Below are positions 28,451 through 33,072 of a DNA stretch of 64,000 nt, piece by piece. Under the pieces are notes generated by a model. That model did not search any database. It worked only from the letters and a program-made list of their open reading frames with translations, and had not been told where the DNA came from. The position numbers were made by a program, and so were the translations under genes. This DNA is from Zarea fungicola (Eukaryota > Ascomycota > Sordariomycetes > Hypocreales > Cordycipitaceae). Location: contig FWCC01000002.1 of NCBI GenBank assembly GCA_900169235.1, forward strand, positions 1 to 64,000, in the 5' to 3' direction. Numbering within the stretch: position 1 is the stretch's first letter; each line of letters opens with the position of its first letter.

Positions 28451-29802
28451 ATGGCGAGTGAAAGGAGCCTGCATCCTCCACATAAAGTCTATTCAACGGA
28501 TTCGTTCGACCCAGAGCCGCAACAAGGTCAGTTCAAGAATCTTCGCCACCAAAGGCGACCTTACCGATGGCATTAACCCGTCCAAAGTAGAAGATACGTC
28601 AGATTCTGATGACCAATTCATTGATGCCCGATCAGGGCCAGCCACACCGAAACCCCGATCCCCAGCACCTATATTGAGAACGAAAAACTTGGAAGTGACA
28701 TCCAGTACTCTGGTCGAAACCGCACAGGAAGGGGGTGACGAGGAGGCTTCGTGTCAAGAACGGGCTATCTCTGGCCAAATAGATACCGGAGAAACGTATG
28801 GACCTGAAGAGGCAGATGATGCGACGCCAAATGGAGAGGATAAAGACGATCCTGAAGATAATACCGACAAAGGCGACGATTTTGGTGACGATTTTGATGA
28901 CTTTGAAGAAGGTGGCGGCGACGACGACGGCTTCGACGACTTTGATGAAGATGACTTTGCAAAACCAGAACCACCAGCTGCGCCAGGAGCGCAGACGTTG
29001 CCGACATCGCAAAATAAGCCTGCACCATCTGTGAGTTGAAGACAGCCAATGGCTCCCGTCGCCCACATCTCTCGTGCTGACAGAGTACTAGCCCATGCCC
29101 GACTTTGAAGGCCTCAGCCCTAATGAAGTTCTTGCCGCGACGGAGGATCTAATAAACACATTATACCCACCGGAGGTGCTTGAAGTACCTGCGCTCCAAA
29201 CGCTACCAAAGGACTCCTCTATTTTCATCAACCCGCGCTCCGCCTCTCTATGGTCGCAACTTGTTGCGCCGCCTCCCCTCGCACCGCCTGATTGGATCCG
29301 GTCGCGAACTAGACGCCTATTTCTTGTCTCACTTGGAGTTCCTGTCGATCTCGACGAAATCCTACCAGCTTCAAAGCAGAAGAAACTCATACTCCCCTCT
29401 CTCAATCTCACATCATCATCACCGCGCGGATCTACTGACATACGCCACGGTGGCAACGGTGTTTCCAGACTGAAGCATGGTGATGGCAATGCGTCGTCTA
29501 CATCCTTGGACTCGCAGGGCAAGCCATCGGCTTCCTCAAAATCTCGAAGACGCCAGCCAGCGCAACCCGAGCTCGATCTCGTTGCCGCTCGATATCTCTG
29601 TAACACGACAGATGAGGCCCTGGACGGAATGACTGACGAGGAGCTCAAGGCACATGTTGATAAGCTGCAGGCCATGCAAGGCACGGCCGAAGACATACTA
29701 GAATATTGGAAGAAACGCACTGATGAGAAGCTTGGCGACCGGGAAGCTTTTGAAGGCGTTATAGAAAATTTGGTTAAACATGCTCGAAAAGTACGGAAAT
29801 AA
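28451..29802 (+). CDS. LAA2-like (YBL010C/DUF5102 type) clathrin-adaptor accessory protein
   Basis: Three exons, 28451-28526, 28588-29030 and 29092-29802, encode 409 residues. Intron 1 (61 nt) was inferred because it joins MASERSLHPPHKVYSTDSFD to VEDTSDSDDQFIDARSGPATP; the alternative of one longer first exon has a weaker start. The middle is very acidic with clustered Phe-Asp motifs (DDFGDDFDDFEEG, DDDGFDDFDEDDF), which resemble the acidic phenylalanine motifs bound by the AP-1 gamma-ear. The C-terminal half (237 residues) is predicted helical, with a conserved-looking NTLYPPEV...LWSQLVAPPPLAPPDWIRSRTRRLFLVSLGVPVDLDEILP and a terminal coiled coil. The assignment to the yeast Laa2 family is from pattern memory. 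The likely role is AP-1 trafficking between trans-Golgi and endosomes. Confidence 0.72.
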
Positions 29803-30096
29803 GGGCAAGGCTAAAGAGCTCGGCCAATTCGGTTAGATGTTACCAGATACACGTACTGCATGTGCAAACATTGGCGAATACAGCATTGAAAATTTGAATA
29901 AACTAATCAGCCACATACCGGCTACATTTTGAACATTTGCAAAGCCCCCCCCTCCTTCTAAATAAAGCGATCAAGAAGCCAGGTATTTGAGTTGAAACCA
30001 GGGAAAGGCAGAGACTAACTTCCGGCAACGGAAATCGAGTCCACTTTGCTATAAGCTATATAAGCAAAAATTAGTCTCCGACCCTCATCGCATCAA
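29803..30096. other. Upstream region of the split tRNA gene
   Basis: This interval follows the LAA2-like stop. It contains TATATAAG at 30057-30064, 33 bases before the tRNA start, a spacing used by TFIIIB-directed promoters in several fungi. No gene is visible. Confidence 0.5.
30057..30064 (+). promoter_or_regulatory. TATA box upstream of the initiator tRNA gene
   Basis: TATATAAG ends 33 bases before the first tRNA base. Upstream TATA elements at this distance assist Pol III initiation on tRNA genes in fission yeast and some other fungi. Its use here is inferred. Confidence 0.5.
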
Positions 30097-30119
30097 AGCA
30101 ATTTGGCGCAGTGGAAGCG

Positions 30120-30174
30120 GTAAATACTCCCTAGGATCCACTGGATCTCCTGTCTTTATACTAACTGGTATCAG
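30120..30174 (+). other. Spliceosomal-type intron 1 within the tRNA
   Basis: 55 nt, GTAAAT donor, TACTAAC branch sequence at 30159-30165, CAG acceptor. This matches the size and signals of the mRNA introns in the neighbouring genes. Its exact removal rebuilds the GCGC strand of the D stem. Confidence 0.8.
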
Positions 30175-30196
30175 CGCCGGGCTCATAACCCGGAGG

Positions 30197-30256
30197 GTAC
30201 GTCTACCATCACTGGTCTTAGTCAACCATACGAGCATCAACTCTAACCTCGATTAG
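30197..30256 (+). other. Spliceosomal-type intron 2 within the tRNA
   Basis: 60 nt, GTACGT donor, CTCTAAC branch sequence at 30241-30247, TAG acceptor. Removal leaves a 5-base variable loop (AGGTC), the same length as in yeast initiator tRNA. Confidence 0.8.
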
Positions 30257-30284
30257 TCGCACGATCGAAACGTGCAATTGCTAC

Positions 30285-30294
30285 TTTTTTTTTT
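30285..30294 (+). terminator. Pol III terminator of the tRNA gene
   Basis: A run of ten T begins two bases after the discriminator base, the normal position and form of a Pol III terminator. Confidence 0.8.
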
Positions 30295-30990: not shown

Positions 30991-33072
30991 ATGCCTCTCG
31001 ACGTGGAGGAACTATTACGGAAGAAAAAAGCAGCAGATGCCGCCGCTGCAAAACCTCGGTTCATACCTAAGCGGGAACGGGAGCAACTTGCCGCGGAAGA
31101 AGCCAAGCAAAAAGATGAACAAAGGAAGAAGAAGGCTGCTCTAGATGCGCAACAGCGCGCTGAGCAAGATAAAAAATGGAAAGTACGGGCAGAGGCCTCA
31201 AATCCCAGCAACAACAAAACAACAAGCGTATTGCCGGCTGGATCGCGCAGCACGAATGGCAAACGGTCTGCGGAACAGATCGAGGCCGAACAACAGCGAG
31301 CGCGCTACTTAGGCCCCGAGGTCAACCAACATTCAACTTTCTCCGCACAGAAGAAACGCATGCGCAGGACCGAGAACAAGTTCAAGTTCGACTGGGACCC
31401 GAGCGAGGATACCACTCGCGTTGACGACTCTGTGTACGTCGGTTTCCCCGGCGGCTCACTTGCAGGCGTCGGCGGCGACTACAATGAGGACGCCGAGGAG
31501 CGTGTCAAGAACTACGCGCGCAGAATGGAGCAGCACGATCCGAAAGGTAGAGAGAGAGCCAACGCGCTCTTGGAGAGGTTCTACCGCGAACGTGAGATAA
31601 AACACGAAGCAGACAAGAAGAGAGGGTTTGGGCAAACGTGGACGGAGAAGGAGCTCCATAAGATGCGCCCGAATGACTGGCGTATATTCAAGGCAAATTT
31701 CAGCATCTCGATGGGGGGTGCAGACCTGCCAAACCCCATCCGCTACTGGAATGAGTCGGGCCTGCCACATAATTTGTTGGAGATTATCAAGGACGTGGGC
31801 TATGATGAGCCGACGCCGATTCAGCGCGCCGCCATACCGATTGCATTACAGGCTCGTGATCTGATTGGTGTTGCCGTGACGGGTTCTGGAAAAACGGCCG
31901 CCTTTCTCCTCCCTCTGCTCGTCTACATCGCCCAACTCCCACCCCTCAATGAGGCCAACAAAAACGACGGGCCCTATGCCCTCGTGCTGGCACCAACCCG
32001 CGAACTGGTGCAGCAGATTGAGAAGGAGGCCAAGAAGTTTGGTGGCCCCCTCGGTTTCCGAAGTGTCAGCATAGTCGGTGGTCATTCACTGGAGAAGCAA
32101 GCCTTTGAGCTGAGCAAAGGCGCAGAGATCATCGTAGCGACGCCAGGTCGCCTTGTGGACTGCATCGAGCGCAGGCTGCTCGTGCTCTCGCAGTGTTGCT
32201 GCGTCGTCATGGACGAGGCCGACCGCATGGTTGACATGGGCTTCGAGGAGTCCGTCAACAAGATCCTCGACGCGCTGCCCGTCTCCAACGAGAAACCCGA
32301 CACAGACGAGGCTGAAGACGGACACCTCATGCAGCGCTTCATCGGCGAGAGTCGCCGCTACCGCCAGACTATGATGTTTACCGCCACCATGCCGCCAGTC
32401 GTCGAGCGCATCGCCAAGAAGTACCTCCGCCGCCCAGCCATGGTGACGATTGGCAATGCCGGCGAGGCCGTGGATACGATCGAGCAACGCGTCGAGTTTG
32501 TGTCTGGCGAGGACGCCCGTAAGAAGCGCCTGCAGCGCATCCTAGCGTCTAACATGTTTGCACCGCCGATTATCATCTTTGTCAATATCAAACGCAACTG
32601 CGACACTGTCGCCAAAGATATCCGCGCCATGGGCTGGTCGGCAGTTCCGCTACACGGCTCCAAGACGCAGGAGCAGCGTGAGGCAGCTCTCGCGTCCCTT
32701 CGCTCTGGTGAGACACAGGTACTTGTTGCTACGGACCTGGCTGGTCGTGGTATCGATGTAGCCGATGTCTCGCTCGTCGTAAACTTCAACATGGCGACAA
32801 ATATCGATAGCTACATCCATCGCATCGGTCGTACTGCTCGTGCGGGCAAGAGTGGCGTAGCCATTACATTTTTGGGCAACGAGGACGCGGATGTCATGTA
32901 TGATCTAAAGCGCATGCTCACCAACAGCCGTGTCTCAAAGGTCCCCGAGGAGCTACGGAATCACGAGGCGGCCCAGTCTAGGCAGGTTAAAGGAGACTTT
33001 TGGAAAGACGAGGATGATAATAATGGCAGTCGTGGTGGCAGCAACAGAGGCCGTGGTGGTGGAAGACGATAG
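30991..33072 (+). CDS. prp28: DEAD-box pre-mRNA splicing helicase Prp28
   Basis: A single exon encodes 693 residues. The N-terminal 200 residues are charged and coiled (MPLDVEELLRKKKAADAAAAKPRFIPKREREQLA), a Prp28 signature. The helicase core shows the Q motif (GYDEPTPIQRAAIPIALQ), motif I AVTGSGKT (about residue 292), Ia PTREL, II DEAD in VMDEADRMVDMGFE (about 405), III TAT, and VI HRIGRTARAG (about 610). It ends in an RGG-type Gly/Arg tail. Prp28 displaces U1 snRNP from the 5' splice site so that U6 can pair there, a step in forming the active B complex. The gene itself has no intron. Confidence 0.95.
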   Translation: MPLDVEELLRKKKAADAAAAKPRFIPKREREQLAAEEAKQKDEQRKKKAALDAQQRAEQDKKWKVRAEASNPSNNKTTSVLPAGSRSTNGKRSAEQIEAEQQRARYLGPEVNQHSTFSAQKKRMRRTENKFKFDWDPSEDTTRVDDSVYVGFPGGSLAGVGGDYNEDAEERVKNYARRMEQHDPKGRERANALLERFYREREIKHEADKKRGFGQTWTEKELHKMRPNDWRIFKANFSISMGGADLPNPIRYWNESGLPHNLLEIIKDVGYDEPTPIQRAAIPIALQARDLIGVAVTGSGKTAAFLLPLLVYIAQLPPLNEANKNDGPYALVLAPTRELVQQIEKEAKKFGGPLGFRSVSIVGGHSLEKQAFELSKGAEIIVATPGRLVDCIERRLLVLSQCCCVVMDEADRMVDMGFEESVNKILDALPVSNEKPDTDEAEDGHLMQRFIGESRRYRQTMMFTATMPPVVERIAKKYLRRPAMVTIGNAGEAVDTIEQRVEFVSGEDARKKRLQRILASNMFAPPIIIFVNIKRNCDTVAKDIRAMGWSAVPLHGSKTQEQREAALASLRSGETQVLVATDLAGRGIDVADVSLVVNFNMATNIDSYIHRIGRTARAGKSGVAITFLGNEDADVMYDLKRMLTNSRVSKVPEELRNHEAAQSRQVKGDFWKDEDDNNGSRGGSNRGRGGGRR

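Follow-up and report, generated by a model that had tools for sequence, protein, structure and literature searches.

Eleven introns of spliceosomal type split nine tRNA genes in a fungal draft genome: three initiator-type tRNAMet genes, one tRNALeuUAA gene and five tRNAAsnGUU genes. The best explanation (probability about 0.92) is that all nine are functional tRNA genes, transcribed by Pol III, that carry ordinary U2-type spliceosomal introns, which the spliceosome would remove. The anatomy of the genes, the identity or covariation of the joined exons and the conservation of the splice signals can be read directly. The draft genome comprises 43.1 Mb in 456 contigs, and the stretch of DNA analyzed here (the window) is positions 1-64000 of one of them, contig C181. 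In the preliminary description of the window, one split tRNA gene was reported and was interpreted as an initiator tRNAMet gene with two spliceosomal-type introns. This interpretation is partly supported: it was right in kind but understated the extent, because the phenomenon extends to nine genes and three isotypes, among which the tRNAAsn and tRNALeuUAA genes are the stronger cases.

The split initiator gene in the window lies on the plus strand between a LAA2-like gene (29095-29799) and a PRP28 gene. Exon 1 (30097..30119) contains tRNA positions 1-24, namely the 5′ acceptor strand and most of the D-arm, with the A box starting at 30104. Intron 1 (30120..30174, 55 nt) is located at site 24/25 and runs from GTAAAT through TACTAAC (30159-30165) to CAG; the same site is split in the genes on contigs C435 and C362. 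Exon 2 (30175..30196) covers positions 25-46, including the CAU anticodon. It is followed by intron 2 (30197..30256, 60 nt) at site 46/47, which has the form GTACGT ... CTCTAAC ... TAG and is also present in the C435 gene. Exon 3 (30257..30283) supplies the end of the variable loop, the T-arm with the B box GATCGAAAC (30263-30271), the 3′ acceptor strand and A73. A T10 run resembling a Pol III terminator is present at 30285..30294, and a TATATAA sequence at 30057..30063, approximately 34-40 bases upstream of the gene, may be an upstream Pol III (TFIIIB) element. The neighboring PRP28-like protein (30991-33072, plus strand) is 71-72% identical to its best named matches, from Cordyceps javanica, Aphanocladium album and Beauveria, which places the fungus in the Hypocreales, close to Cordycipitaceae. 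PRP28 is a spliceosomal helicase, and the fact that its gene adjoins a split tRNA gene is probably a coincidence.

Eukaryotic initiator tRNAMet is characterized by A1:U72, a GGG:CCC anticodon stem, A54, A60 and the CAU anticodon. When the three exons are joined, the resulting 72-mer forms the cloverleaf of tRNAMet(cat), in which the acceptor, D, anticodon and T stems are all paired, and it possesses all of these features together with the AUCGAAA T-loop. Moreover, the genome contains an uninterrupted gene (C113:21764-21835; Rfam tRNA model score, 64.4 bits) whose sequence is identical to the joined exons at 72/72 positions. Because of this identity, the exon boundaries of the window gene are fixed without any structural assumption. 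The exon and intron coordinates in the preliminary description proved exact to the base, and its account of a fully paired initiator tRNA interrupted by two GT-AG introns of 55 and 60 nt with TACTAAC and CTCTAAC branch sites was confirmed. ARAGORN and Rfam (at the gathering score) detected no tRNA in the window. After the gene was known, a cloverleaf scan that tolerates introns was designed, with the requirements of a 7-bp acceptor, a 5-bp T stem, an A box and a span of ≤300. It gave one match in the window itself, whereas 100 Markov-1 resampled windows gave no match.

The likeness of these introns to the mRNA introns of the window, which had also been pointed out, holds. The window encodes a valyl-tRNA synthetase on the minus strand (closest solved structure, 1gax), and manual reading of the conserved protein places four introns in its gene, at 34979-34931, 34470-34421, 34386-34332 and 33799-33735. 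These introns are 49-65 nt long, begin with GTAAGT or GTATGT, contain CTAAC, CTAAT or CTGAC and end with YAG. An ORF-bridging prediction gave eight mRNA intron candidates in the window. Because it agrees with our reading at 33799-33735 only, one of the four sites, the other three introns rest on the protein reading; two further candidates in this gene differ in their ends. The eleven tRNA introns have the same make-up. They are 55-75 nt long and are located at sites 24/25, 28/29, 34/35 and 46/47. GT-AG ends and a purine at position 3 are found in all eleven, position 5 is G in 8/11 and position 6 is T in 10/11. The three introns with A at position 5 (GTAAAT, GTGAAT) have a weaker 5′ site. The 3′ end is CAG in eight introns and TAG in three, and every intron has a CTAAC or CTAAT branch site whose branch A is followed by 10-12 nt.

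Genes for initiator-type tRNA were searched for in the whole genome with the anticodon arm GGGCTCATAACCC. The search gave 457 places (4 exact, 21 with one mismatch and 432 with two mismatches) against 571 for the reversed-pattern control. The four exact places are the intact gene on C113, the window gene on C181 and split genes on C435 and C362. The C435 gene has exons identical to those of the window gene and carries both introns at the same two sites. The C362 gene encodes a second initiator-type tRNA (A1:U72, A54 and A60) and has a single intron, at 24/25. One of the one-mismatch places, C175:34799 (region L017, L108), is an intact gene that is related to the C362 gene and has C33 and A57. 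Thus, three of the five initiator-type genes found are split. This count comes from 30 fetched loci, which include all exact and one-mismatch places and 5 of the 432 two-mismatch places, so that an initiator gene differing from the pattern at two positions would have escaped. In these 30 loci, only the C113 and C175 genes are readable as tRNAs by ARAGORN. A second pattern search gave 31 places against 20 for the reversed control; its three exact matches are split genes, and 30 of the 31 places were fetched, the exception being on C433. By manual reading, a separate gene pair (C124 and C343) encodes elongator tRNAMet, and both genes have an ordinary intron 3′ of the anticodon; the ARAGORN labels differ.

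The preliminary description inferred that this essential tRNA needs the spliceosome. However, uninterrupted genes exist in the same genome: the C113 gene is identical to the joined exons, and the C175 gene is an intact initiator-type variant. Therefore, dependence of the initiator tRNA on the spliceosome is not supported. The intact C113 gene has an ATCAA leader in common with the split gene, and two unread bases (NN) separate it from a long T run. On account of this leader and T run, it possibly arose by retrocopying of a precursor that had been spliced.

The dependence argument fits tRNAAsnGUU better, and probably tRNALeuUAA, because all five tRNAAsnGUU genes found are split. Each carries one intron at 28/29; the three type-1 genes are clustered on C175, and one type-2 gene is located on each of C323 and C391. 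In the trailers of the type-2 genes (L117, L119), a short hairpin-like repeat, AACATGTTGTG ... CACA[AG]CAT, precedes the T run. In the tRNALeuUAA gene on C98, a 58-nt intron (GTAAGC..AACTAAC..CAG) is located at 34/35, inside the anticodon (U/AA). This gene additionally has a 17-nt canonical intron at 37/38, a position that none of the eleven introns occupies. When the 58-nt intron is removed, ARAGORN reads the sequence as Leu(taa); when it is left in, the program gives a UGU anticodon, although the rest of the molecule is Leu-like and its variable arm is long. All seven joined sequences submitted to ARAGORN were read as tRNAs of the expected type (the three identical type-1 tRNAAsn forms were entered once).

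Intact counterparts were searched for in several ways. With the joined type-1 tRNAAsn as a DNA query against the genome, the exons were found apart and an intact copy was not found. The joined tRNALeu query found only the C98 exons and no close intact tRNALeuUAA gene. A search with the tRNAAsnGUU anticodon arm and variable loop (≤2 mismatches) gave exactly five places, all of which are the split genes; because the reversed control also gave five, the identity of the places counts in this search and not their number. When an A-box-type D-arm and a B box were required 80-110 bases apart, the first pattern gave one place, the tRNALeu gene on C98 (control, 1), and the second gave ten places (control, 2), five of which are the tRNAAsn genes. 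A further pattern search gave 108 places against 252 for the reversed control, and six of the 100 matches listed are the tRNALeu gene and the five tRNAAsn genes. Pattern counts alone are weak, as the controls of 5 against 5 and 1 against 1 illustrate, and what counts as evidence is the nature of the loci found. A scan of 294,308 bases of fetched loci gave no further split gene in addition to the nine. Scans of IMG/VR for split A-box sequences gave 0 and 1 contigs; the single hit (L123) reads as phage-type coding DNA and was rejected as a chance match.

Several of these genes, including the one in the window, escaped the tRNA searches used here. None of the five tRNAAsn genes is listed in the whole-genome Rfam tRNA search, and ARAGORN with introns allowed overlooked the C435 and C362 genes and misread the C98 gene. 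The Rfam list also lacks a tRNAGlyUCC at L097 118-190 (minus strand), which ARAGORN detects. Because the whole-genome tRNA search is thus incomplete, the number of split genes is at least nine, and the evidence against an intact tRNAAsn gene comes from the joined-query and anticodon-arm searches. An intact tRNAAsn gene could be missing from the draft or could have been overlooked.

The split genes might be non-functional copies, in which introns landed in spare tRNA genes while intact genes supplied the cell. The intact C113 gene, identical to the window exons, and the intact variant on C175 would be in keeping with this idea. However, the exons of the split genes are unchanged while most intron bodies drift, and we consider the idea improbable. 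In addition to the 72/72 identity described above, the exons of the type-1 tRNAAsn genes are identical at 74/74 positions in all three pairs. The cores of their introns, with the splice signals removed, are at the shuffled mean in two pairs (20/40 and 19/40 columns), and in the third pair 22/34 columns match (0.65), which is above the best of 50 shuffles (0.61). Of the 10 possible pairs of tRNAAsn introns, nine have core alignments that do not exceed the best of 50 shuffles. Between C181 and C435, the core of initiator intron 1 has drifted, and 20 of 37 columns match, against a mean of 0.45 and a best value of 0.56 over 100 shuffles; intron 2 is less informative on drift, because it is still alike at 51/60 positions. 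Compensatory changes are also seen in the stems. Type-1 and type-2 tRNAAsn differ on both sides of 7:66 (G-C to A-U) and 28:42 (C-G to U-A), which pair across the intron, and of 29:41 and 50:64, which pair within exon 2. Between the initiator-type forms iMet A and iMet B, the compensatory pairs are 6:67 and 7:66 across the introns and 12:23 within exon 1. Thus, the exons are the same or compensated and the splice signals are kept, whereas most intron bodies have drifted to shuffled-level similarity. Because the exons are unchanged and no intact tRNAAsn gene (nor a close intact tRNALeuUAA gene) was found beside the split ones, pseudogene status fits poorly.

Another possibility is that the introns are removed not by the spliceosome but by the tRNA splicing endonuclease acting at non-canonical sites, as in nucleomorphs, Cyanidioschyzon and archaea, where a bulge-helix-bulge (BHB) structure may be recognized. 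In the BHB structure, two 3-nt bulges at the exon-intron junctions flank a central helix of 4 bp. At the eleven introns, only 0-3 of these 4 pairs can form (the maximum, 3/4, in the two copies of initiator intron 2), so that the full helix is present at 0/11 junctions, whereas GT, a branch site and YAG are present in 11/11. Endonuclease removal is therefore very improbable, even though non-canonical tRNA introns are known in nucleomorphs and Cyanidioschyzon according to PMC4090602, and even though the tRNALeu gene has a canonical 37/38 intron as well. Since introns of this type belong to Pol II transcripts, one could also propose that Pol II transcribes these loci within longer transcripts and that the tRNA-like exons are spliced without yielding a tRNA. 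This proposal is scarcely credible in view of the internal A and B boxes, the exact tRNA ends and the occurrence at several unrelated loci. The A box, B box and T10 run of the window gene are those of a Pol III tRNA gene, and the other split genes have a T run of ≥5 within 60 bases downstream. Furthermore, a similar intron seems to be present in the U6 gene of this genome, and U6 genes are known to be of the Pol III type. The U6 snRNA gene on C377 (L125, approximately 1500-1660) has an apparent 59-nt intron, GTAAGT..CACTAAC..CAG, with the junctions AAGGAT/GTAAGT and CCCAG/GACACGC; this is a manual reading against the U6 sequence, and the Rfam match runs unbroken into the proposed intron. A B-box-like sequence, GTTCGAAAC, is located within this putative intron, and the U6 gene of fission yeast has its B box within its intron. 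Two U3 matches cover the model end to end.

The split genes thus look like Pol III genes and are probably transcribed as such. Inside the introns, the longest T run is 1-3 nt in eight cases, whereas one intron has a T4 run and two have a T5 run; the T5 runs are in the tRNALeu intron and one type-2 tRNAAsn intron, and the T4 run is in the other type-2 tRNAAsn intron. In some organisms, such runs could end Pol III transcription early, which may concern the tRNALeu and type-2 tRNAAsn genes.

Under the spliceosomal explanation, a precursor would be transcribed from the internal A and B boxes up to the T run. The GT-AG introns of 55-75 nt would then be taken out by the spliceosome, and the joined exons would fold into a normal cloverleaf and undergo tRNA end processing. 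In the tRNALeuUAA precursor, the intron at 34/35 presumably leaves first, because it interrupts the anticodon, and the tRNA endonuclease would then cut the 17-nt intron. Initiator tRNA would come from both split and intact genes. In contrast, tRNAAsnGUU and probably tRNALeuUAA would be made only from split genes, and because of this, their supply would be tied to splicing. From these sequences, we consider it likely that all cytosolic tRNAAsn and tRNALeuUAA are spliceosome-dependent, that the Leu anticodon is assembled by the spliceosome before the endonuclease acts and that introns invaded Pol III tRNA genes several times.

If this is true, the decoding of whole codon families is tied to splicing capacity. 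Spliceosomal processing of essential tRNAs appears to occur in the same genome as ordinary tRNA introns. Several questions become testable: how efficiently the spliceosome acts on very short Pol III precursors without a cap or poly(A), how the spliceosome and the tRNA endonuclease share one substrate (tRNALeuUAA), and how splicing defects affect translation. Fungal tRNA gene sets that apparently lack tRNAAsn may conceal more split genes.

In the textbook account, introns of nuclear tRNA genes are located at position 37/38, where a protein enzyme, the Sen endonuclease, cuts them out and tRNA ligase then acts. The introns described here share a nuclear tRNA host with them, and the tRNALeuUAA, elongator tRNAMet and tRNALys genes of this genome carry canonical introns. 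The spliceosomal-type introns differ in position (24/25, 28/29, 34/35 and 46/47), in length (55-75 nt), in their splice and branch signals and in that two can occur in one gene. PMC8450103 states that a eukaryotic tRNA gene has at most one intron, and PMC4090602 treats non-canonical eukaryotic tRNA introns as rare; the string "spliceosom" occurs in neither text. We found no report of spliceosomal introns in nuclear tRNA genes in the open PMC literature, a scope that excludes most subscription journals and bioRxiv preprints. Judged from that literature, their novelty is likely but not proven. The introns of nucleomorphs, Cyanidioschyzon and Thermoproteales resemble those described here in lying in the D-arm, the anticodon stem and other sites outside 37/38; however, they are of endonuclease type, many with BHB, whereas the introns here have spliceosomal signals and no full BHB helix. 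Introns of mRNA type occur in nuclear rRNA genes of ascomycetes. These are likewise spliceosomal introns in a stable non-Pol II RNA, but the host is a Pol I transcript and not a tRNA. The introns of fungal U6 snRNA and U3 snoRNA are also short spliceosomal GT-AG introns with a fungal branch site in small structured RNA genes; PMC5832005 names U3 and U6 as the only small structured RNAs in which an intron is known to occur frequently. In the present case, the hosts are tRNAs of three isotypes, split at four positions and once inside the anticodon, whereas U6 and U3 decode no codons.
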